DNA of 64,000 nt, from the NCBI RefSeq assembly GCF_025822765.1, contig NZ_JACKUK010000028.1, forward strand, positions 1-64,000, read 5' to 3'. The notes below the pieces were generated by a model that was given only the letters and a program-made list of their open reading frames with translations, was not told where the DNA came from and searched no databases. This DNA is from Mycobacterium barrassiae. GTDB taxonomy: Bacteria; Actinomycetota; Actinomycetes; Mycobacteriales; Mycobacteriaceae. Of this stretch, positions 39,004 to 51,347 are shown piece by piece. Positions within the stretch are counted from its first letter, which is position 1. Each line of letters starts with the position of its first letter. The translations under genes and the position numbers were made by a program.

Positions 39004-40332
39004 TCAGCGTCGGCGCAGGGTGACCAGCCCGCCGGCTTTCGGGGTGAAGGCGATTCCGCGGAAGTGAACCTTCTCGTCGGGGGCGTTGTCGGTCTCGATC
39101 ACGAAGTGCCGCAAGATCGTTCGCAATACGACATCGAGTTCGACATTTGCGAACGCCGCCCCGATGCACCTGCGCGTGCCGCCGCCGAACGGTACCCACG
39201 CCGTCGGTGTCCTGGTGTTCAGGAACCGGTTCGGGTCGAGGCGTTCGGGATCGGGGAACACGTCGGGATTGCCGTGCACGGTGGCGAGCGCGACCATCAC
39301 GGTGTAGCCGTGCGGAATCCGCCATTCGCCGAGGTCGAAATGCGGTGCCAGTACGTGGCGTCCGGAGAAGTCGATCACCGTGCGGTTGCGTTGCAACTCC
39401 TGGATGAAGGCCTGACGGTACTCATTGCCGCCCGCGTCGTTCTCCTCGACCAGCTTGGCGAGGATGTCCGGGTGGCGGCGCAGCCGCTCGAACGCCCAGC
39501 CCAAGGTCGACGCGGTGGTTTCGTGGCCCGCACCCAGCAGCGTCAGCAGCTCGTCGGAGACGTCCTGATCGGACATCGGCGTGCCGTCCTCATAGGTGCT
39601 GCGTAACAGCAGCGCGAGGATGTCGGTGCGTTCCTCGAACCGCGGATCGGACTTCGCCTTGGCGATCAGCGCGAAGACGGTCCGGTCGAAGTTGCGGCGG
39701 AACTCGGTGAGCCGGCCCCACGGGCTGTAGCGGGTCGTCTTGAACGGCGGCTCCGGCAGCGTGGCCATCCGCGAACCGAGTTCTGCCCACGGCGGGATGA
39801 TCTCGCGCAGATAGTCCAATTCGGCTCCGTCTGCGCCGAATACGGTCCGCAGGATCACGTTGAGCGTGATCCGGTTCATCGCCTCGAGGGTGCGAAACTC
39901 CTTGCCCTCCGGCCAGTTCGCGCTCTCGCGCAGAGTCTCCTCTTCGATGATCTTCTCGTAGTTCTTGATGCTCTGGCCGTGGAACGGCGGCGCGAGCAGC
40001 TTGCGGCGCGCGCGGTGCTCCTTGCCGTCCAGCGCGAAGACCGAGCCCGGTCCGAAGATCCTGCTGAGGTTCGGCTGGACATTGATCAGGTCGTCGGTGC
40101 TGGCCAGAAACACCTGCCGCACCAGCTTCGGATCTGATACGACCACGCTGCGGCCGAAGAACGGCACATTGATGGCGAACACGGAGCCGTAACGCTTGTG
40201 CGCGTAGCCCAAAAATCGTCGGCGGAAGCCTGCCATGAGGACCATCTGGACCGGCTTGGGCAGGCGGACGACGGGCGGATGCTTCCCCGGGGCCGTAGCG
40301 GCCTCGGTGTCGATCGTCGCTGCGTCAGTCAT
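39004..40332 (-). CDS. cyp138: Cytochrome P450 (CYP138-like)
   Basis: This 442-residue P450 has the I-helix oxygen-activation motif LGAGHETTAS (about residue 270), the ExxR pair and the heme-binding loop FGGGTRRCIGAAFA with its cysteine ligand. The neighbourhood (divergent TetR, nearby msrA and Rv0138/Rv0139-like genes) matches M. tuberculosis cyp138 (Rv0136), from memory. The natural substrate of CYP138 is not known to me. The divergent TetR and a double palindrome suggest induction by a small molecule. The thioesterase-like gene follows in the same direction. Confidence 0.88.
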   Translation of the reverse strand: MTDAATIDTEAATAPGKHPPVVRLPKPVQMVLMAGFRRRFLGYAHKRYGSVFAINVPFFGRSVVVSDPKLVRQVFLASTDDLINVQPNLSRIFGPGSVFALDGKEHRARRKLLAPPFHGQSIKNYEKIIEEETLRESANWPEGKEFRTLEAMNRITLNVILRTVFGADGAELDYLREIIPPWAELGSRMATLPEPPFKTTRYSPWGRLTEFRRNFDRTVFALIAKAKSDPRFEERTDILALLLRSTYEDGTPMSDQDVSDELLTLLGAGHETTASTLGWAFERLRRHPDILAKLVEENDAGGNEYRQAFIQELQRNRTVIDFSGRHVLAPHFDLGEWRIPHGYTVMVALATVHGNPDVFPDPERLDPNRFLNTRTPTAWVPFGGGTRRCIGAAFANVELDVVLRTILRHFVIETDNAPDEKVHFRGIAFTPKAGGLVTLRRR

Positions 40333-40380
40333 CGCTTCTCCTTAGCCCCCGCGGGTCTCGCTCTCCCGACGGGACTATCT

Positions 40381-40429
40381 GGTACTACGCTGTACCGTAG
40401 GTTTGTGTAGTACGGTACCGGTTAGTACC
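40381..40429. promoter_or_regulatory. Double TetR operator between cyp138 and its regulator
   Basis: Two copies of GGTAC-N6-GTACC (40381-40396 and 40414-40429) are themselves arranged as a larger inverted repeat: GGTACTA-N4-GTACCGTA versus TACGGTAC-N4-TAGTACC. The symmetry of the whole 49-bp block strongly suggests two regulator dimers bound on the two divergent promoters. Confidence 0.75.
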
Positions 40430-40460
40430 ACCCCTTCGCAAGGGGTGCGATGGAGGCGAA

Positions 40461-41078
40461 ATGACGACTGCGCTCAACCAGGGTGTGCGTGCTTCGCATT
40501 CCGGTGACACCCCTGATCCGTTCCGTGACCGGCTACTCGACGGCATGGCCGCATCGATCATCGAACGCGGTTTCCGCGACACCACCGTCGCCGATATCGT
40601 CCGGCACGCCCGCACCTCCAAGCGCACCTTCTACGAGCGGTTCGCCAGCAAGGAAGAGTGCCTGATCGAGCTGCTTCGCCGGAACAACGAGATCCTGATC
40701 GCCAACATCCGCAACGCCGTCGATCCCGAGGCGGACTGGGACGAGCAGATCCGCCAGGCCGTCGACGCCTACGTCGGCCACATCGAAGCGCGGCCCGAGG
40801 TGACGCTGAGCTGGATCCGTGAGCTTCCCGCGCTGGGGGCCGTGGCGCAGCCGCTGCATCGGCAGGCCATGGAGCACCTGACCGACATGCTGGTCGCACT
40901 CAGCGACAGCCCCGGTTTCCGGCGCGCGCAGATCGCACCGCTGTCGCGCCCCCTGGCGCTGATCGTGCTTGGCGGTCTGCGCGAACTGACCGCCTTGTTC
41001 GTCGAGGACGGACGCGATGTGCGCGGCATCACCGACCACGCGATCACCGCGGCAACGGCCATCCTCGGACCGCGCTAG
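40461..41078 (+). CDS. TetR-family regulator of cyp138 (Rv0135c-like)
   Basis: This 205-residue TetR protein has a helix-turn-helix with FRDTTVADIVRHARTSKRTF followed by YERFASKEECLIELL. The C-terminal ligand domain resembles no class I can name. GGAGG lies 4 bases before the ATG. Divergent from cyp138 across the double palindrome at 40381-40429, which it very likely binds. It is convergent with a second TetR gene and separated from it by a hairpin. Confidence 0.88.
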   Translation: MTTALNQGVRASHSGDTPDPFRDRLLDGMAASIIERGFRDTTVADIVRHARTSKRTFYERFASKEECLIELLRRNNEILIANIRNAVDPEADWDEQIRQAVDAYVGHIEARPEVTLSWIRELPALGAVAQPLHRQAMEHLTDMLVALSDSPGFRRAQIAPLSRPLALIVLGGLRELTALFVEDGRDVRGITDHAITAATAILGPR

Positions 41079-41102
41079 CCGTTCTGTTCTGTGCCCTGTG
41101 CC

Positions 41103-41149
41103 TTAACGGGTTGATCGCACGCACCTGACGCTCGCAATCAACCCGCTAA
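41103..41149. terminator. Bidirectional hairpin between two TetR genes
   Basis: TTAACGGGTTGATCGC (41103-41118) pairs with GCAATCAACCCGCTAA (41134-41149), 14 of 16 positions, with a 15-nt loop. It lies between convergent stop codons. Confidence 0.65.
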
Positions 41150-41156
41150 GCACCTC

Positions 41157-42451
<1,295 letters not shown>

Positions 42452-42463
42452 CGCGCTAGTCCG

Positions 42464-44044
42464 TCACTGCGGAACCCGCGACGCCATGCAGTCGGTCATC
42501 ATCTCCCGCACGCGGTAGCGCTTCAGTTTCCCAGTCGCGGTCTTGGGTAATTCGGTGGCGAATTCAACGACCCGCGGCAGCTTGAACGCGGCAAGTTCGG
42601 CACGACACCATTCGATCAGTTCGACGGGGTCGACGTCATGGCCTGGTGCGGGCACCACCATCGCCACCGGTTTGTCGATTCCGTCGTCCCCTGGTGCGCC
42701 GACGACGGCGGCTTCGACAACCGACGGATGTTCGAGAAGGCGTCCCTCGACTTCGCTGGGCGACACCCAGATGCCGCCGGCCTTCAGCAGGTCGTTGGAC
42801 CGCCCCAGACAGTGGTAGTAGCCGGACCCGTCGATCAGATAGGTATCACCGGTTCGAAGCCAGCCATCTTGGAAGACAGCCTGATTGGCCTCAGGGCGTT
42901 GCCAGTAGCCGGCGGCGATCGACTCGCCGTACACGTACAGGTCGCCGGGTGTTCCCGGCGCGGCGGTGCGTCCCTGGGCGTCTCGGATCTCAATCCGGTA
43001 GCCAGGCACCGGCTTTCCCGTGGTGCCTGTGCGGATGTCGCCGGGTCGGTTGGACAGGAAAATGTGCAGGGCTTCGGTCGAACCGATGCCGTCGACGATA
43101 TCGACCCCGAAGCGACTCTGGAACTGACTGTGTAGCGCGACCGGTAGCACCTCGCCCGCCGAAACGCACAGACGCACCGATTCGAAAGAGTCGTCCGGCA
43201 ATTCGGACTGCACCAGGCTGGAGTAGAACGTAGGCACCGCGAAAAACAGGGTGGGCGCGGTTGCCGCCAACCGCTCGCGCATCGACTCGGGCGTTGGCCG
43301 CAACGGTTGCAGAACTGAGGTCGCGCCTGCCGCGAGCGGGAAGAACAAGCTGTTTCCGATGCCATAGGCGAAGAACATCTTCGCCACCGACAGACACCGG
43401 TCCTCCTGCCGGATGTCGAGGGTTAGACGTCCGTAGGTTTCATAGACATGGCGGATGTTGGCATGTCTATGCATGGCTGCCTTCGGTTTACCGGTGGTAC
43501 CGGAGGTGTAGAGCCATAGCGCGCTGGAGTCAGCATCAGTGATGGCGGGTGCCTGCGGGTCACCGAGCAGGCCCGTCCAGGAGTGGACTTGCATATTGGC
43601 ACGACTCGGAGTGGGTAGCCGGTCGCTGGAAGAGGCGGCAATGAGATGTTCGACGTCACTACAGAATTCGAGGCTCGACAGCACGGCGCCGACGTAGTCC
43701 TCGGTAGCGACCACCACACGTGCGCCCGAGTCACGGATTATCTGCTCGAGCTCTCTGCTGGTCAGCATCGTCGACGTCGGCATGGCCACGAATCCGGCGT
43801 GGAAGGCGGCCAGGATGGTTTCGGCCATCTCGATGTCGTCGCTCATCACCATCGCGACCCGGTCCCTGGGCTGCAACCCGAGTGCCCGCAGTCCGCCGGC
43901 CAGGCGTGCCACGTCGTCCGAGAGCTGGCTATAGGTCCGCGTGTGAGAGCCGATCAGCGCGACCTTGTCACCGATGCCCCCGCGCACCTGGCGGTGGACC
44001 AGGAAGTCGGCGGCATTGAAGAAGTCCAGGTCCATCGCGTTCAC
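42464..44044 (-). CDS. bclA: Benzoate-CoA ligase-type acyl-CoA synthetase
   Basis: This 526-residue adenylate-forming enzyme has the AMP-binding loop YTSGTTGKPKAAMH (about residues 180-193), GSTEALHIF for the adenine site, WLRTGDTYLID, and a C-terminal lysine in KTATGKLKRYRVRE. Within the superfamily it looks most like benzoate-CoA ligases (BclA/BadA). The fusion of its operon to boxC and boxB supports benzoate or a substituted benzoate as substrate, giving benzoyl-CoA. The GTG start overlaps the boxC stop (GTGA). Confidence 0.82.
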   Translation of the reverse strand: MNAMDLDFFNAADFLVHRQVRGGIGDKVALIGSHTRTYSQLSDDVARLAGGLRALGLQPRDRVAMVMSDDIEMAETILAAFHAGFVAMPTSTMLTSRELEQIIRDSGARVVVATEDYVGAVLSSLEFCSDVEHLIAASSSDRLPTPSRANMQVHSWTGLLGDPQAPAITDADSSALWLYTSGTTGKPKAAMHRHANIRHVYETYGRLTLDIRQEDRCLSVAKMFFAYGIGNSLFFPLAAGATSVLQPLRPTPESMRERLAATAPTLFFAVPTFYSSLVQSELPDDSFESVRLCVSAGEVLPVALHSQFQSRFGVDIVDGIGSTEALHIFLSNRPGDIRTGTTGKPVPGYRIEIRDAQGRTAAPGTPGDLYVYGESIAAGYWQRPEANQAVFQDGWLRTGDTYLIDGSGYYHCLGRSNDLLKAGGIWVSPSEVEGRLLEHPSVVEAAVVGAPGDDGIDKPVAMVVPAPGHDVDPVELIEWCRAELAAFKLPRVVEFATELPKTATGKLKRYRVREMMTDCMASRVPQ

Positions 44045-45741
44045 ACCCGTTCGTGGTCGAAGCTTGCACGCGCGCCCGTGCCGTATCGTCGCAACGCGCC
44101 CTCCGGCCCGGCGGCGTTGGGCCGCACGAAGATCCAGTTCTGCCAGGCCGTCAGACGCCCGAAAATCTTCGACTCTTGGGTTTCCGGGCCGACGAACCGA
44201 TGGTTGGCTTCCATTCCCGTCAATGCGTCCGGTGATAGTGCCGCCCGTTCCTCGAGGACGATACGGAGTTCGTCGGCGAAATCGATGTCATCCAGCGCCG
44301 ACGTGACCAACCCGAGTTCGCCCGCGGCCTCCGCGATCAAAGGTTCATTGATTCGATTGGCGACCGCGGTGAGAAGCTCGGGATGGCCGTAGAAGCGGGA
44401 CTCCAGCCGCGTCAAGCCATTACCCATGGGGAACGCGCCGAAGTTCGACTCAGTCACCTCGACCGCGGCCGGACATGCGTCGGGCTCCGCATCTTCGTAA
44501 ACTCCCTCGAGCATGTACTGGCGATCACAGGCCAGTGCCAACTCCAGCAGGAAGCCGACGTACGCACTGCCCGGTTCGATCACCGCGAAAAGGCTGCGAC
44601 TGGTCACATCGAGACGCTTGAGTGTCCGCTTGTAGTAGTGGATCACCTCGTTGACGAACCAGTCGTGGGCGAGTTCGCGGAGCTGCTTGTCATACGCCCG
44701 GGCGTTGTCTTGATTCCCGAGCACCCGGAAAACCCATGTCCCTAGGTCGATCTCATTGGTTCGAAGGTGCAAGATCAGGTCGTCCAGCTCGCGGGTGAGC
44801 GCGAGCGGGTAGTAGTCGTCCCCCTGCGAGAGGACGGCAGCGGCATCGGCTGGCGGAACCGATTCCGGTGCCGACACCTCGATGTCGACGCGACGTCCCG
44901 TCCGGTCCAACGTGGCACGAACATGCCGGTAGATGATCTCATCGTCGTCGTTCCGCCGCGACAGTCGTGTCAGGGTGACGCCGTTGGGGCTGTCAGGCCG
45001 GGTTGACCGGTTGGCCGCCTGCTCGGCCAGCGCGTGAACCCGCGCATCAAATTGTGCGGGTGCCACCGTCTCGTCTATGAGGCCCCACTCGACCGCGGTA
45101 TGCCCTCGAACCCCTTCGGATTTCGTCGCAAATACGTCTGCTCGGTCCTTTCGGACCTTGCGTTTGTCGACAACGCGTGTCAGGCCACCGGTCCCCGGAA
45201 GCACGCCCAACAACGGCACCTCTGGCAAGGACACCGCCGAGGAACCGTCGTCGACCAGGACTATCTGCTCGCACGCCAGCGCCAACTCGTATCCGCCACC
45301 CGCGGCGGTGCCGTTGAGCGCGGCTATGTACGTCTGGCCGGAGTGCTGCGTGGCATCCTCGATCCCGTTGCGCGTCTCGTTGGTGAACTTGCAAAAGTTC
45401 ACCTTCCACGTGTGCGGTGACTGAGCCAACATCCGGATGTTGGCACCGGCACAGAACATTCGATCCATTCCGCCGCTTACGACAACGGCCTTGACCTCAG
45501 GGTGTTCGAAGCGCAGACGCTGTACCGCGTCGTACAGTTCGATGTCCACACCCAGGTCGTAGGAGTTCATCTTGAGCTCGTATCCGGGGACGATCCCGGC
45601 GTGCGGATCGACGCTGAGCGTGAGGGTCGCGACCGGCCCGTCGGTCTCCAGCCGCCAATGTCGATACTCGGCGGGTTCGGTCACAAACGAAACAATCGTG
45701 GCATCGGGCGCGATCGGCGGTGCCGTCGTGGCAGCGGTCAT
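44041..45741 (-). CDS. boxC: Benzoyl-CoA-dihydrodiol lyase / 2,3-epoxybenzoyl-CoA dihydrolase
   Basis: This 566-residue protein of the crotonase superfamily has two crotonase-like halves, as in BoxC. It opens 2,3-epoxybenzoyl-CoA by double hydration to 3,4-dehydroadipyl-CoA semialdehyde plus formate. The first half carries FCAGANIRMLAQSPHTWKVN and LNGTAAGGGYELALACEQIV, the second YVGFLLELALACDRQYM. The WQNWIFVRPNAAGPEGALRRYGTG tail (in two parts, WQNWIFVRPNAAG and EGALRRYGTG) is typical of BoxC. GAGGAGG lies 5 bases upstream of the ATG. It is 10 bp downstream of boxB and overlaps the ligase gene. Confidence 0.92.
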   Translation of the reverse strand: MTAATTAPPIAPDATIVSFVTEPAEYRHWRLETDGPVATLTLSVDPHAGIVPGYELKMNSYDLGVDIELYDAVQRLRFEHPEVKAVVVSGGMDRMFCAGANIRMLAQSPHTWKVNFCKFTNETRNGIEDATQHSGQTYIAALNGTAAGGGYELALACEQIVLVDDGSSAVSLPEVPLLGVLPGTGGLTRVVDKRKVRKDRADVFATKSEGVRGHTAVEWGLIDETVAPAQFDARVHALAEQAANRSTRPDSPNGVTLTRLSRRNDDDEIIYRHVRATLDRTGRRVDIEVSAPESVPPADAAAVLSQGDDYYPLALTRELDDLILHLRTNEIDLGTWVFRVLGNQDNARAYDKQLRELAHDWFVNEVIHYYKRTLKRLDVTSRSLFAVIEPGSAYVGFLLELALACDRQYMLEGVYEDAEPDACPAAVEVTESNFGAFPMGNGLTRLESRFYGHPELLTAVANRINEPLIAEAAGELGLVTSALDDIDFADELRIVLEERAALSPDALTGMEANHRFVGPETQESKIFGRLTAWQNWIFVRPNAAGPEGALRRYGTGARASFDHERV

Positions 45742-45751
45742 GACAGCCTCC

Positions 45752-47233
45752 TCAGGTCAACGCTTCTTCGCGAAGATGTACGTAATCGAATTCGACTGGC
45801 TGCTCGTTGATTCCGGTCTTCGGAGGCGCGATCCAGCCGGCGAATTCACCGGGCTGGTAGTGGGGCACCATCAGTGCGGCCACGCGCGAGCGGTCTTCAT
45901 CGGTCGGCAGCCAGTCGTCTGCGCGACGATGCCAATCCTCGGCGGTCATCACGTCACCGTCCGGCGAGATGAAGTGACCGCCGTAGTTGCCGATCTTTCG
46001 GTTGAAGCCCTCATGCGGGAGCGTGAGCCGCTGATCGAGCCCCGCGTTCTCCAACGCCCGATTCCACTTCCGGACGCCTTTTCGGCAATCGGCAACGTAT
46101 TCGTCGCGGAGATCGAGGTTGAGCGCGGTGAGGTACGGTACCGATTCCTCGACGATGCGACCGTCAGCCACCATGCGCACCGGGTAGATCGCCTCAGTGA
46201 GGAGGTGATCGTCGTTGCGGCGGGTTTCCAACCAGCGCCCCTTGAGCCCACCCGTGTAGTAAGCGGCGGCGTTGGTTGACTGCTCAGAACCGAAAAGGTC
46301 CAACGACACCGAGAATTGGGCATTCAGATACTTCTGGATGACCGACAGCGGGATGCCACCGTATTCGAAGATGTCGTCGGTGTTGTGCGCAGCCATCAAC
46401 TCCGCTGTGCGCTCGACCGTACGTTCCACCCCGGTGGTCCCGACAAACATGTGGTGAGCTTCTTCCTTGAGCATGAACTCACAGGTCCGCGCCAAGGGAT
46501 CGAATGCCGACTCCTTCAATGTTCCCAGCTGATACTTGCCGTCGCGGTCGGTGAAGTAGGTGAACATGAAGAACTGCAACCAGTCGGTGGTCTTCTCGTT
46601 GAACGCACCGAGGATTCGCGGCGTGTTGACATCGCCGGAGTTTCGCTTCAGCAGCTGTTCGGCCTCGTCTCTGCCGTCACGACCGAAGTATGCGTGCAGT
46701 AGATACACCATCGCCCAGAGGTGGCGTCCCTCTTCGACATTGACCTGGAACAGGTTCCGGAGATCGTAGATGCTCGGTGCGGTGCGGCCCAGAATCCGCT
46801 GTTGCTCAACGGATGCCGGCTCGGTGTCGCCCTGCACGATGATCAGGCGCATCAGCTCCGCCCGGTATTCGCCGGGCACCTCTTGCCACGCCGGCTCGCC
46901 CTTGTGTTGTCCGAAACCGATCCTTCGATCGCCGTCGCGCTCGGCTAGGAAGATGCCCCAGCGGTATTCGTTCATCGGCACATGTTCGAAGTGCGCCCAG
47001 CCGTCGCGTCCGACGGCGACCGCTGTCCGCAGATAGACGTCCTTTGTCGGCAGCTCAGGTCCTAGCGACTGCCACCAGTCCCGGAACTTCGGCTGCCAAC
47101 CCTCGAGTGCCCGCTGCAGCCGACGGTCCTGTGACAGGTTGACGTTGTTTGGGATCCGCTGGCTGTAGTCGATCCTGCTCAGCGGCCCGGTCGGAACCGG
47201 TGCCGTGCCTGTTTGCGCCCGCTCGACTGCCAT
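45752..47233 (-). CDS. boxB: Benzoyl-CoA 2,3-epoxidase oxygenase subunit
   Basis: This 493-residue class I diiron oxygenase adds one oxygen atom to benzoyl-CoA, giving the 2,3-epoxide, with electrons from BoxA. Iron ligands are recognisable in NVEEGRHLWAMVYLL and LKEEAHHMFVGTTGVER. The N-terminal WWQSLGPELPTKDVYLRTA and central DRDGKYQLGTLKESAFDPL are conserved in BoxB. GGAGG lies 4 bases before the ATG. It is the first gene of the operon boxB-boxC-ligase and is divergent from the PaaX-type gene. No boxA reductase gene is found in the window. Confidence 0.93.
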   Translation of the reverse strand: MAVERAQTGTAPVPTGPLSRIDYSQRIPNNVNLSQDRRLQRALEGWQPKFRDWWQSLGPELPTKDVYLRTAVAVGRDGWAHFEHVPMNEYRWGIFLAERDGDRRIGFGQHKGEPAWQEVPGEYRAELMRLIIVQGDTEPASVEQQRILGRTAPSIYDLRNLFQVNVEEGRHLWAMVYLLHAYFGRDGRDEAEQLLKRNSGDVNTPRILGAFNEKTTDWLQFFMFTYFTDRDGKYQLGTLKESAFDPLARTCEFMLKEEAHHMFVGTTGVERTVERTAELMAAHNTDDIFEYGGIPLSVIQKYLNAQFSVSLDLFGSEQSTNAAAYYTGGLKGRWLETRRNDDHLLTEAIYPVRMVADGRIVEESVPYLTALNLDLRDEYVADCRKGVRKWNRALENAGLDQRLTLPHEGFNRKIGNYGGHFISPDGDVMTAEDWHRRADDWLPTDEDRSRVAALMVPHYQPGEFAGWIAPPKTGINEQPVEFDYVHLREEALT

Positions 47234-47288
47234 GTTGCCTCCAACGTCGGTGCGTCAATATTCTACGTTCAGTCTGCGGTTCGCAATA

Positions 47289-47315
47289 GTCATGTAGCAG
47301 ATTCTTGATCATGAC
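47289..47315. promoter_or_regulatory. Candidate operator between boxB and the PaaX-type gene
   Basis: GTCATG and CATGAC face each other 15 bp apart within the 183-bp divergent gap, with AGATTCTTGAT between. It is the clearest dyad in the gap. The gap is AT-richer than its surroundings. Binding by the adjacent PaaX-type repressor is inferred from position. Confidence 0.4.
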
Positions 47316-47416
47316 ACCCGGTAACGGCCCGCTTGGTTCTACGCAGATCCGTGATCCGCTGTATGAACGTCACACTTGTCGAAGGAATCGCGCGTTGAGT
47401 ACGAAAGGATGGGCTC

Positions 47417-48247
47417 ATGGGTCCGGAGCCTCGCGAGTTGGGGTCGAGCGCGCGAAGCCTGTTGCTCACCATCCTGGGTGAGTTCGTGCGCCCTCGCGGC
47501 GTCCCGGTGTGGACGGCAACCTTGGTGGCGGGACTCGCAGCGCTCGGCGTCGAGGAAAAAGCCGCCCGCCAGGCGATCGCACGGTCGGCAGCCCACGGGG
47601 TGCTGGAGTCGCGGAAGTCCGGGCGCCGGGTGTCGTGGCAGATGACTACGGCTGGAACTCGGCTGCTGACGGACGGCGCTCGACGGATCTACGGCTTCCT
47701 GATAGACACATCGGCCTGGGACGGAGAGTGGCTCGTCCTCTCGGTCGGTATTCCGGAGTCGCAGCGGCAGCTGCGCCAGCAGTTGCGCACCCGGCTCACG
47801 TGGTTGGGAATGGGCTCACCCACCCCGGGAATCTGGATTCTTCCCGACGTGACCAAAGTCGGCGAGGTGGCGACGATCATCGACGACCTCGGCCTCGCGG
47901 GGCACGCTTTCGCCTGGACCGGCAAGCTCGCCTCCATCGGCAAAACCGATTCACTGATCGGAGACGCATGGAATCTGAGCGCAGTCGAAGACCGCTACGC
48001 AGACTTCCTCAGTACATTCGGCAAGCTGCGGGCCACCACACCGGCCGAGGCGTACGTAGCCCAGGTCCGCCTGGTTCATGCCTGGCGACGATTTCCATTC
48101 CTGGATCCCGCGCTTCCACGTGAACTGCTCGATCACGATTGGCCGGGCCCTCAGGCGGCGGCGCTCTTCCACCGTCGCCACGACGAATGGCACAGCCAAG
48201 CCCAGACATACTGGACCGAATTGGAGGCGCTAACCGGGAGACGCTAG
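47417..48247 (+). CDS. PaaX-family transcriptional repressor
   Basis: This 276-residue protein has an N-terminal winged helix (RSLLLTILGEFVRPRGVPVW to GVEEKAARQAIARSAAHGVL), a central TIGR02277/PaaX domain (SAWDGEWLVLSVGIPESQR) and a C-terminal ligand domain (LVHAWRRFPFLDPALPRELL). PaaX proteins bind phenylacetyl-CoA and release the paa operon. Here the position opposite boxBC suggests benzoyl-CoA as effector, which would differ from the BoxR/MarR-type control known elsewhere. AAAGGA lies before the ATG. The stop overlaps the convergent toroid gene by 4 bp. Confidence 0.88.
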   Translation: MGPEPRELGSSARSLLLTILGEFVRPRGVPVWTATLVAGLAALGVEEKAARQAIARSAAHGVLESRKSGRRVSWQMTTAGTRLLTDGARRIYGFLIDTSAWDGEWLVLSVGIPESQRQLRQQLRTRLTWLGMGSPTPGIWILPDVTKVGEVATIIDDLGLAGHAFAWTGKLASIGKTDSLIGDAWNLSAVEDRYADFLSTFGKLRATTPAEAYVAQVRLVHAWRRFPFLDPALPRELLDHDWPGPQAAALFHRRHDEWHSQAQTYWTELEALTGRR

Positions 48248-49314
48248 CGATCGCTGGTCGCGCACTCGCAGTCGTACTCGCCCTCGAGGCCGCGGGGCAG
48301 GTCCGCGCCGCGGAAGATGCCGCTGGCCGCCGTCGTGCGCGATAACGCATCGGCCGCGAGGATCATCGCCGCACCGGTCCACGTGGTGCGCTCGACGGGC
48401 CACCGCTTGCCATCGGCATAGACCAAACCGGTCCAGTACGACCCGTCCTCTTCGCGCAGATGATGCATCGAGGCGAACTGCTCATGTGCACGGACTGTAT
48501 CGCCGATGGCGTCCAATGCCATTACCAGCTCGCAGGTTTCGGCTCCGGTCACCCACGGCCGGTCGTCGACGCAGCGGATGCCGAGGCCGGGCACGACGAA
48601 GTCGTCCCATCGTTCGTCGATGCGTGACCGGGCGGGCGCACCACGCAAGGCGCCGCCAAGCACCGGGTAGTACCACTCCATCGACCAACGGTCCTTGGTG
48701 ACGAAGGCGTCCGGGTGCTCGGCGATCACGTGACCGAGCCGGCCGGCCGCGAGCTCCCATTCCGGCTGCGGATCGTCGAAGTAGTCTGCGAGCGCAAGCG
48801 CACACCGGAGGCTGTGATAGATGCTCGCGCAACCGGTGAGCAGTGCTTCCGGTTCCAGCCCCGACGGGCTTCTTGCCCAAGCGATTTCACCACCGCTGAG
48901 CTGCATGTCGAGTACGAAGTCGACGGCCTTTGTGACGACCGGCCACATCGTCTCGGCGAATCGACGGTCGCGGGTGATCAGCACGTGGTGCCAGACGCCG
49001 GTCGCGATGTAGGCGCAGAAGTTGCTGTCGCTGTTGGCATCCTCGATGACGCCGTTGCGCACCTGGATCGGCCATGAGCCGTCGGGCCGCTGCATATTGC
49101 GACACCACTCGAACGCGCCGCGCGCGGGCTCGAGAAGTCCGGCCGCCGTCAGCGCCATCGCGTTCTCGACGTGGTCCCAGGGATCGGTGTGGCCGCCCTC
49201 GAACCACGGAATAGCTCCAGAGGACTCCTGCGTGTCGGCGATCGATCGAGCGGTCTGGCGGCATTGCGCCGGCGTCAGAACACCGGGCACGCCGGGCACG
49301 TTAGGAGACAGCAA
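48244..49314 (-). CDS. Alpha/alpha-toroid protein, usually annotated 'prenyltransferase'
   Basis: This 356-residue protein is rich in paired helices with QW-like turns (MQRPDGSWPIQ, REEDGSYWTG) and many conserved tryptophans. These are signs of an alpha/alpha-barrel as in squalene cyclases, six-hairpin glycosidases or prenyltransferases. No DxDD or prenyltransferase zinc site is evident, so the common label is doubtful. A carbohydrate-active role fits its position as third gene after a glycosyltransferase and a methyltransferase. It overlaps the methyltransferase gene by 14 bp. Confidence 0.65.
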   Translation of the reverse strand: MLSPNVPGVPGVLTPAQCRQTARSIADTQESSGAIPWFEGGHTDPWDHVENAMALTAAGLLEPARGAFEWCRNMQRPDGSWPIQVRNGVIEDANSDSNFCAYIATGVWHHVLITRDRRFAETMWPVVTKAVDFVLDMQLSGGEIAWARSPSGLEPEALLTGCASIYHSLRCALALADYFDDPQPEWELAAGRLGHVIAEHPDAFVTKDRWSMEWYYPVLGGALRGAPARSRIDERWDDFVVPGLGIRCVDDRPWVTGAETCELVMALDAIGDTVRAHEQFASMHHLREEDGSYWTGLVYADGKRWPVERTTWTGAAMILAADALSRTTAASGIFRGADLPRGLEGEYDCECATSDR

Positions 49315-50032
49315 CAGGTACCACCGGCTTCTTGAAATACATGGCGACGCTCTTGCCGATCAGCGGGTTCAGCACTGACTCCGCCGTCCGCGTGAGCCAG
49401 GGTCGGCTCATCATGTCCCACACCAGCAGCTTGTGATATGCCGTCACCGCTGGGTGATCCGACTTCTCCGTTCCGACAGCGCATTTCAGCCACCAATAGG
49501 GAGCGTGCAGCGCATGCGCATGGTGGGTGCCGGTGAGTGTCAGGCCGTGCGCGAGCACCTTGTCCCGCAGCGCGTCGCCCTTGTAGATCCTGATGTGCCC
49601 GCCCTCATTGGCGTGGTACTCGTCGGACAAAATCCAGCACACCTTCTCGGGCAGCCAGCGGGGAACCGTGATCGCCAGGGCGCCACCGGGTTTGAGGACT
49701 CGAACGAGTTCTGCGATCGCTCGGTCGTCCTCGGGTACGTGCTCGAGGATTTCCGACGCGATGACGCAGTCGAAGGTGCCGTCGCCGTACGGCAGGCCCA
49801 GCGCGTCGCCCTTGACCACCTCGGCCTTCGCCGACGCCGGCACCTCGCCCTTGTCCTTCATCGCCTTCAGGATCTCGTCGACGTTGTTGAGATCCTCGAC
49901 GTTCTGATCGAAGCCGATGACGTCGGCGCCTCGCCGGTAGGCCTCGAAAGTGTGCCTGCCTGCGCCGCAGCCGACGTCGATCACCTTCGTGCCTGCGCCG
50001 ACACCGAGCCGGTCATAGTCGACGGTCAGCAT
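49301..50032 (-). CDS. Class I SAM-dependent methyltransferase
   Basis: This 243-residue Methyltransf_11-type protein has motif I VIDVGCGAGRHTFEAY and a second-strand acidic turn (FDQN). CVIASEILEHVPEDD forms the post-I region, and VRVLKPGGALAITVPRWLPE follows. The C-terminal part is hydrophobic and basic, possibly membrane-associated. It is the second gene of the operon, overlapping the glycosyltransferase by 7 bp. It probably methylates the sugar product made by that enzyme; this is inference. It resembles Rv0224c from memory. Confidence 0.8.
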   Translation of the reverse strand: MLTVDYDRLGVGAGTKVIDVGCGAGRHTFEAYRRGADVIGFDQNVEDLNNVDEILKAMKDKGEVPASAKAEVVKGDALGLPYGDGTFDCVIASEILEHVPEDDRAIAELVRVLKPGGALAITVPRWLPEKVCWILSDEYHANEGGHIRIYKGDALRDKVLAHGLTLTGTHHAHALHAPYWWLKCAVGTEKSDHPAVTAYHKLLVWDMMSRPWLTRTAESVLNPLIGKSVAMYFKKPVVPVAVS

Positions 50033-51261
50033 TTCGCGACCCGCTCACACGCCTGCTCGTACACCGCAACCGTCTGTGCCGCAACGGATTCCCAGCTGAA
50101 CACATCCAGTGCACGCTGTCGGCCGTTCGCACCGAGCCGGCGTAGTTCCAGCGGCGAGTCGAGGAGTTCGCCGAGCACCCTGGTCAACTCATCGACGTCG
50201 GCCGGGGTCACCAACCGCGCGCATTCACCGTCGGCGCCGACCACCTCGGGCAGCGCTCCCGCCCGACTGGCGACGATCGGCGTGCCACTGGCCATCGCCT
50301 CCACCGCAGGCAGCGAGAAGCCCTCGTAAAGCGAAGGGATGCAGGCGACTTCGGCCGACGCCAGCAGGTCGGCGAGCTCTGCATCGGTCAGCCCGCTCGA
50401 GCTGTGCACGATGTCGGAGATGCCCAACTCCGCGATCAGCTTCTCGGTCGGGCCATTGGGTTCGAGCTTGGCGACGAGCTGCAACTCGAGGTCGCGTTCG
50501 ACGCGCAGCCGCGCGACGGCGTTCAGCAGATGCGCGACGCCCTTCAGCGGCACGTCGGCACTTGCGATCGCGATGATGCGGTTACGCACCCGACGTTCGG
50601 CGGGCTTGAACAGTTCGGTGTCGACGCCCAGCGGTACGACGTGCAGCTGGTTCGGCGTCACGCCGAAGTCCTCGGCGATGTCGGCGGCCGACGTCGATGA
50701 GACCGTGAGCAGTTCGGGGATCCGTCGCGCGACATCCTTCTGCATCTCGGCGAAGCCGTACCAGCGGCGCACCAACGGCTTACGCCACCACGGTGCCGCC
50801 GCAACGTCGAGCACGCGATCGCGAGTGATCGGATGGTGCACGGTCGCCACCACCGGCAAGCCGATGTCCGCGATTTTCAGCAGCCCGGAGCCCAGGCACT
50901 GGTTGTCGTGCACCACGTCGAAGTCGTCCCGCCGCTCGGCCAGCACGCGCGCAGCACGCAGGCTGAACGTCTTCGGCTCCGGGAAACCCGCGGTCCACGT
51001 CGTCAGCAGCTCGCGAAGGTCGATCGTCGTCTTGATCTCGTTGGGCCACGGAATGCGGAACGGGTCCGGCTCGCGGTAGAGGTCGAGGCTCGGCACCTTG
51101 GTCAGGCGCACCCGCGGATCGAGGCCCTCGGGGTACGGCTGGCCGGAGAACACCTCGACGTCATGGCCCAGCTCGACGAGTCCCCTGGACAGGTGGCGGA
51201 CGTAGACCCCCTGCCCGCCGCAATGGGTCTTACTCCGGTACGACAACAAAGCGATGCGCAT
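50026..51261 (-). CDS. GT4-family glycosyltransferase
   Basis: This 411-residue GT-B glycosyltransferase has the N-terminal acceptor-side loop KTHCGGQGVYVRHLSRGL. The donor-site motif EVACIPSLYEGFSLPAVEAMASGTP (split as EVACIPSLYEGFSLP and AVEAMASGTP) carries the EX7E glutamates of family GT4. It transfers a sugar from an NDP or GDP donor; donor and acceptor are unknown. ATG 51261 begins the conserved MRIALLSY; the upstream extension lacks similarity. It is the first gene of a three-gene operon with its promoter and a palindrome at 51348-51392. Confidence 0.85.
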   Translation of the reverse strand: MRIALLSYRSKTHCGGQGVYVRHLSRGLVELGHDVEVFSGQPYPEGLDPRVRLTKVPSLDLYREPDPFRIPWPNEIKTTIDLRELLTTWTAGFPEPKTFSLRAARVLAERRDDFDVVHDNQCLGSGLLKIADIGLPVVATVHHPITRDRVLDVAAAPWWRKPLVRRWYGFAEMQKDVARRIPELLTVSSTSAADIAEDFGVTPNQLHVVPLGVDTELFKPAERRVRNRIIAIASADVPLKGVAHLLNAVARLRVERDLELQLVAKLEPNGPTEKLIAELGISDIVHSSSGLTDAELADLLASAEVACIPSLYEGFSLPAVEAMASGTPIVASRAGALPEVVGADGECARLVTPADVDELTRVLGELLDSPLELRRLGANGRQRALDVFSWESVAAQTVAVYEQACERVAKC

Positions 51262-51347
51262 GCTCAACTCACGGCAATGCGCGCTTGCGGACACGTCCAG
51301 GCCCGGTGAGCAGGACAAATCACATCACTCAAAGACCCCGAACCTTT

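Follow-up and report, generated by a model that had tools for sequence, protein, structure and literature searches.

The classical aerobic benzoyl-CoA (box) pathway is that of Azoarcus/Aromatoleum and Burkholderiales, for which plasmid pBRH01 of Mycetohabitans rhizoxinica (L106) was taken as the reference. Besides a benzoate-CoA ligase, the diiron epoxidase BoxB and BoxC, it includes BoxA, an NADPH-dependent reductase with two [4Fe-4S] clusters (PMC4498308). BoxD is likewise assigned to the pathway (PMC4498308), although the reference stretch on pBRH01 has no annotated BoxD. The regulator of the classical system is the XRE-family protein BoxR (PMC10803450). BoxB is reported to need just minor amounts of BoxA, and the contact between the two proteins is apparently transient (PMC4498308), which makes a change of electron donor plausible. 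The phenylacetyl-CoA (paa) pathway follows the same CoA-epoxide logic (PMC4498308) and shares a PaaX-family regulator with the locus described here. However, its epoxidase is PaaABCE, whereas the locus encodes a BoxB (TIGR03225), with ring opening by BoxC.

Surveys that require BoxA set BoxA-less clusters aside. An example is PMC10803450, where a BoxA-less context is classed as incomplete; the terms actinobacteri, actinomycet, streptomyces and rhodococcus are absent from its main text. The boxBC genes are mentioned for UBA5794 actinobacteria in a paper whose main text does not name boxA (PMC12008989). Neither a box operon in mycobacteria nor a BoxB linked to a ferredoxin was found described in the portions of open-access full text covered (including PMC4498308, PMC10803450, PMC11438761, PMC12008989, PMC13186573, PMC7946887, and PMC11309472); most of the subscription literature lies outside this scope, and priority cannot be claimed. 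The locus in Mycobacterium barrassiae is a real and rare operon of a known pathway that was probably acquired, and it represents an actinobacterial variant without BoxA that, in this genome, is also missing the likely substitute for BoxA.

The operon is located at positions 42464-47233, on the reverse strand, of the window, i.e., the whole stretch of 64,000 nucleotides that was analyzed, and the products of all three genes score above the respective NCBIfam cut-offs. The boxB gene (45752-47233, reverse strand) encodes a predicted benzoyl-CoA 2,3-epoxidase, a diiron oxygenase of 493 amino acids (TIGR03225, 757 bits, cut-off 499), of which residues 21-487 align with the solved BoxB of Azoarcus (PDB 3per, 637 bits). 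Residues E138, E168, H171, D229, E258, and H261 correspond in this alignment to the diiron ligands of 3per, all six of which are conserved. The boxC gene (44041-45741, reverse strand) scores 850.5 bits with TIGR03222 (cut-off 712), and residues 17-566 of its product match PDB 2w3p with 675 bits. The ligase gene (42464-44044, reverse strand) encodes a benzoate-CoA ligase family protein of 526 amino acids (TIGR02262, 526 bits, cut-off 375). The boxC and ligase genes overlap by four bases and only 10 bases separate boxB from boxC, which fits the coupled operon of these three genes proposed in a preliminary description of this DNA. Thus, a BoxB with a diiron site, a BoxC, and a benzoate-CoA ligase are encoded in one cluster, as in the classical pathway, and judged by these families the cluster would belong to aerobic benzoyl-CoA metabolism.

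Divergent from boxB lies a repressor-like gene (47417-48247, forward strand), whose product contains PF07848, PF20803, and PF08223. The regulator facing the operon had been described as PaaX-type. It has all three PaaX Pfam domains; however, since its score with the PaaX equivalog TIGR02277 (169.5 bits) is below the cut-off of 264.55, the protein is, by its domain scores, of the PaaX family rather than PaaX proper. It probably represses the divergent promoter until it is released when aryl-CoA accumulates. The region between the two genes (47234-47416) measures 183 bases, and a boxB-proximal part of it, which looks promoter-like by eye, aligns in short conserved blocks with the corresponding regions of Mycobacterium neglectum (L115) and of a metagenome-assembled genome (MAG; L116). 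A search for a shared operator of the PaaX-family gene, which compared the DNA upstream of it in 71 loci for 5+5 dyads and 8-10-mers, yielded no clear common site: the top dyads, which are G+C-rich, occurred in six of the 71 regions, against 2-3 in ten letter shuffles.

Box clusters resembling this one are present in Nocardia, Gordonia, Nonomuraea, Planosporangium, and Geodermatophilaceae. They have BoxB, BoxC, the ligase, and usually a PaaX-family gene in common with the window, and, like the window, they lack BoxA. The search for such clusters retained the best 80 of 363 relatives, so that clusters unlike that of the window are under-sampled. BoxA did not score above the cut-off in any of the 60 actinobacterial box genomes searched, including that of M. 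barrassiae, where the best match is partial and reaches 82 bits against a cut-off of 459; as a control, the Mycetohabitans record scores 682 bits. In total, 88 loci were compared, including one labeled Melainabacteria (L068). BoxB, BoxC, and the ligase were found together in 63 of them, the other 25 including some cut by contig ends. Three of the 63 extend less than 3 kb beyond the ligase, and the 60 with at least 3 kb were considered comparable; these include neither L068 nor the window itself. Among these 60 loci, a ferredoxin gene and a gene for a thioredoxin reductase (TrxR)-like ferredoxin reductase are present near the ligase gene in 46, a ferredoxin gene in 54, neither in six, a PaaX-family gene in 52, and BoxA in none. 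The box ferredoxin of M. neglectum belongs to FdxA_Actino (146 bits, cut-off 125), presumably a 7Fe ferredoxin. Its box reductase is a TrxR-like flavoprotein without a CxxC motif; the best PDB matches are 2zbw (270 bits), which is named thioredoxin reductase, and 3lzw (256 bits), a ferredoxin-NADP reductase 2. Linkage to the ligase gene does not prove that the pair feeds BoxB, since eight of the 60 loci were scored as ferredoxin-only (in one of them, L035, a reductase gene follows boxC), and two loci outside the genus (L058 and L074) have neither gene. Two further genes were noticed in actinobacterial box clusters. One encodes an amidohydrolase (PF04909; L117:14232-15113) without an NCBIfam match at 1e-20 and occurs in 44 of 90 compared sequences; the other, found in 24 of the 90, encodes a PaaY/gamma-carbonic-anhydrase-like hexapeptide protein (L034:18335-18862) that scores below both NCBIfam cut-offs and, by analogy with PaaY, is perhaps a thioesterase.

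The window has neither the ferredoxin nor the reductase gene near the ligase gene. In M. neglectum and the MAG, the island occupies the same chromosomal site and contains the same four genes, with a BoxB 88% identical to that of the window, and the redox genes fill 1.3 kb between the ligase gene and the left flank. In the window, just 12 bases (42452-42463) remain at this junction, as judged from the alignment and the gene positions. The best match to the box reductase elsewhere in the genome has only 30% identity (77 bits). As all four other members of the BoxB/BoxC clade of the window (L107, L115, L116, and L117) have both genes, their loss in the lineage of the window is the simplest reading. 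This loss, together with the failure to find BoxD in the genome, could mean that the operon is a decaying relic, no longer working without its redox partners, and the PaaX-family gene has indeed evolved somewhat faster in the window (dN to L107 of 0.092 vs. 0.060). Yet, all four open reading frames are intact, the three enzymes score above their family cut-offs, and the genes are under purifying selection, with a dN/dS of 0.08-0.20 relative to L115, L116, and L107, which points to working genes. Moreover, the distances of BoxB, BoxC, and the ligase to L107 are no larger than those of M. neglectum, which keeps the redox genes; the low dN/dS and these ordinary rates together argue against decay. 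A close reductase is also missing in four mycobacteria of another lineage, i.e., in five of the 12 in all. A relic is, therefore, improbable.

We consider it probable instead that this is an active benzoyl-CoA epoxidase operon in a small island of the actinobacterial box type (approximately 42452-48247), which obtains its electrons from housekeeping ferredoxins. The ligase would activate benzoate to benzoyl-CoA, BoxB would use O2 and two electrons to epoxidize the ring, and BoxC would hydrolyze the epoxide to an open-chain semialdehyde and formate. In the actinobacterial version of the pathway, the electrons probably come from the small FdxA-type ferredoxin and the TrxR-like NADPH:ferredoxin reductase, which would replace BoxA. 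Because the lineage of the window appears to have lost both, its BoxB most likely draws on housekeeping ferredoxins. Candidates are two FdxA-type ferredoxins, encoded on contigs C27 and C23 and both above the cut-off, of which the latter shares 61% identity with the box ferredoxin of M. neglectum, and a ferredoxin/reductase fusion, here called FprB-like, for which even the highest NCBIfam scores stay far under the respective cut-offs. The fusion gene was noticed on contig C25 (L188:1495-3180), where it begins seven bases after a gene for an AurF-family diiron oxygenase (L188:462-1487, 390 bits), i.e., beside another diiron enzyme. For actinobacteria in general, we give even chances to the proposal that BoxB is a diiron epoxidase that works without BoxA and receives its electrons through a small ferredoxin and a TrxR-like ferredoxin reductase, and that several mycobacteria, including M. 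barrassiae, no longer have this pair, so that their epoxidase relies on the common pool of ferredoxins (FdxA-type and/or the FprB-like fusion) under the control of a PaaX-family aryl-CoA sensor. If BoxB does run on ferredoxins, aerobic benzoyl-CoA catabolism would be more widespread than is apparent from BoxA-based surveys, and the way in which a single diiron enzyme changes its redox partner (BoxA, ferredoxin with reductase, ferredoxin alone, or none) could be studied among relatives.

For BoxD, the semialdehyde dehydrogenase, the query was a BoxD-like protein from L117 that scores above the NF008868 cut-off, and the best match in the genome has 31% identity (88 bits); BoxD is missing in six more mycobacteria as well, i.e., in seven of the 12 in all. 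Presumably, a generic aldehyde dehydrogenase acts in place of BoxD. No thiolase in the genome scores above the PcaF cut-off, which none of the 14 control genomes passes either. With neither BoxD nor such a thiolase found, the lower pathway is assumed here. The missing BoxD would also be consistent with an operon that acts on another aryl-CoA, or whose role is to detoxify aryl-CoA and not to support growth on benzoate. Substrates may vary, since the ligases of the other mycobacterial lineage share just 50-53% identity with that of the window, and an anthranilate-CoA ligase is also among the PDB matches of the ligase. However, the latter match is weaker (347 vs. 415 bits), the closest ligases with structures are the benzoate-CoA ligases 4rm3, 4rlf, and 4eat, followed by 2v7b, and phenylacetyl-CoA is reported not to be taken by BoxB (PMC4498308). 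Such a different role is, thus, rather unlikely, and benzoate is the substrate we favor. In the genome, the best match to BenA reaches 270 bits against a cut-off of 781 and CatA has no match; the CatA model is named for proteobacteria, and in 14 control genomes it found matches in four, including Corynebacterium glutamicum, none of them above the cut-off. With no BenA above the cut-off and no CatA match, the box operon would be the sole benzoate route recognized in this genome. For mycobacteria, the operon suggests a way of using benzoate that does not depend on catechol. The catechol route had been put forward as the mycobacterial norm, a contrast that needs care: no such route was recognized in M. 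barrassiae itself, and BenA exceeds the cut-off in just two of 24 compared genomes, one of which (G213) also carries the island.

The island is inserted between a methyltransferase-domain gene of the old chromosome (41753-42451, forward strand; PF13578) and a gene conserved in relatives, with a weak oligosaccharide-amylase-like match (48244-49314, reverse strand; 47 bits, cut-off 821). The latter is present in 35 of the 61 genomes searched, including that of M. barrassiae, and 16 island-free (BoxB-less) regions were chosen from the 34 others. In 14 of these 16, the orthologues of the two flanking genes are less than 200 bases apart, and in the remaining two, L152 (8.7-9.9 kb) and L156 (9.6-11.6 kb), unrelated stretches of 1.2 and 2.0 kb lie between them, and the site may, therefore, be a repeated landing place. 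Mobility signatures were looked for at the island ends by an ORF domain scan and searches for tRNA genes and repeats, and none were found: there is no tRNA gene in the window, no long flanking repeat within 41500-49500, and none of the 10 ORFs covered by the domain scan (39004-51318) encodes an integrase. The GC content of the box genes is 0.614-0.658, compared to a mean of 0.673, and their GC3 is 0.767-0.773 vs. 0.838 ± 0.047 in 32 other genes, called heuristically and no shorter than 600 bases (p = 0.003 in a Mann-Whitney test). The lower GC noted by eye in the preliminary description was, thus, confirmed, although it is modest, and composition alone was rejected as proof of transfer because three of the 32 other gene calls have a still lower GC3. 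Elsewhere in the window, a gene with a low GC3 (0.70) at 170-2983 encodes 937 amino acids, which match a STAND NTPase model weakly, with 26 bits against a cut-off of 27.1.

Within the genus, BoxB was found in only 12 of 396 genomes and, above the cut-off, in four of 396 genomes of a phylum sample, M. barrassiae being included in both counts. Both its rarity in mycobacteria and its horizontal acquisition, as originally suspected, hold up: the latter is well supported by the scarcity of BoxB in the genus and by the empty insertion site of 14 of the 16 island-free relatives. A first BoxB+BoxC tree omitted 11 of 90 sequences that were short of BoxC, leaving 79 rows for a quick tree. A more careful tree, made with a mixture model, was thinned to 47 of these rows, with one proteobacterial row as the outgroup; L026-L028 were removed as duplicates of L115, L116, and L117. 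In the 47-row tree, the window and four further mycobacterial copies (L107, L115, L116, and L117) fall together inside a Nocardia/Gordonia/Antrihabitans clade (100/100), and the other seven mycobacterial copies sit apart. A single clade of all twelve was rejected on this tree (AU p = 0.003) but not on the 79-row quick tree (p = 0.079), so that the two separate mycobacterial lineages suggested by the former are not significant on the larger tree.

The preliminary description had recognized the core of the pathway of Azoarcus and Burkholderia, which implies that the textbook proteobacterial pathway moved in from such bacteria. The core gene families are indeed the same. The affiliation, however, is contradicted by the gene content, i.e., no BoxA, no BoxD, and a PaaX-family regulator, and by the tree, in which the clade mentioned above, rooted with its one proteobacterial row, holds the window; the nearest relatives outside the genus, among the best 80 of 363, are Nocardia, Gordonia, and Antrihabitans. 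Likewise, BoxB is 60.5-61.6% identical to seven long Mycetohabitans matches, against 88% to the nearest mycobacterial protein and 82% to those of Nocardia vinacea and Gordonia otitidis. A proteobacterial transfer is, thus, highly improbable; as judged from the tree and these identities, the source of the island is on the Nocardia/Gordonia side.

Within the clade, the careful tree places the window weakly with L107 (86/35). Its grouping with M. neglectum and the MAG, which share its insertion site, was neither demonstrated nor rejected, with an AU p of 0.36 on that tree and of 0.76 on the quick tree, where the constrained tree was better than the free one. The synonymous distances between the window and these two are 0.59-0.98 for the island and 0.35-0.70 for the flanks. 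Between M. neglectum and the MAG, the island genes are at 0.19-0.29 and three flanking genes at 0.41-0.62, roughly twice as far, which suggests an exchange of the island between these two species; the island may, thus, have been passed between species after its first arrival.
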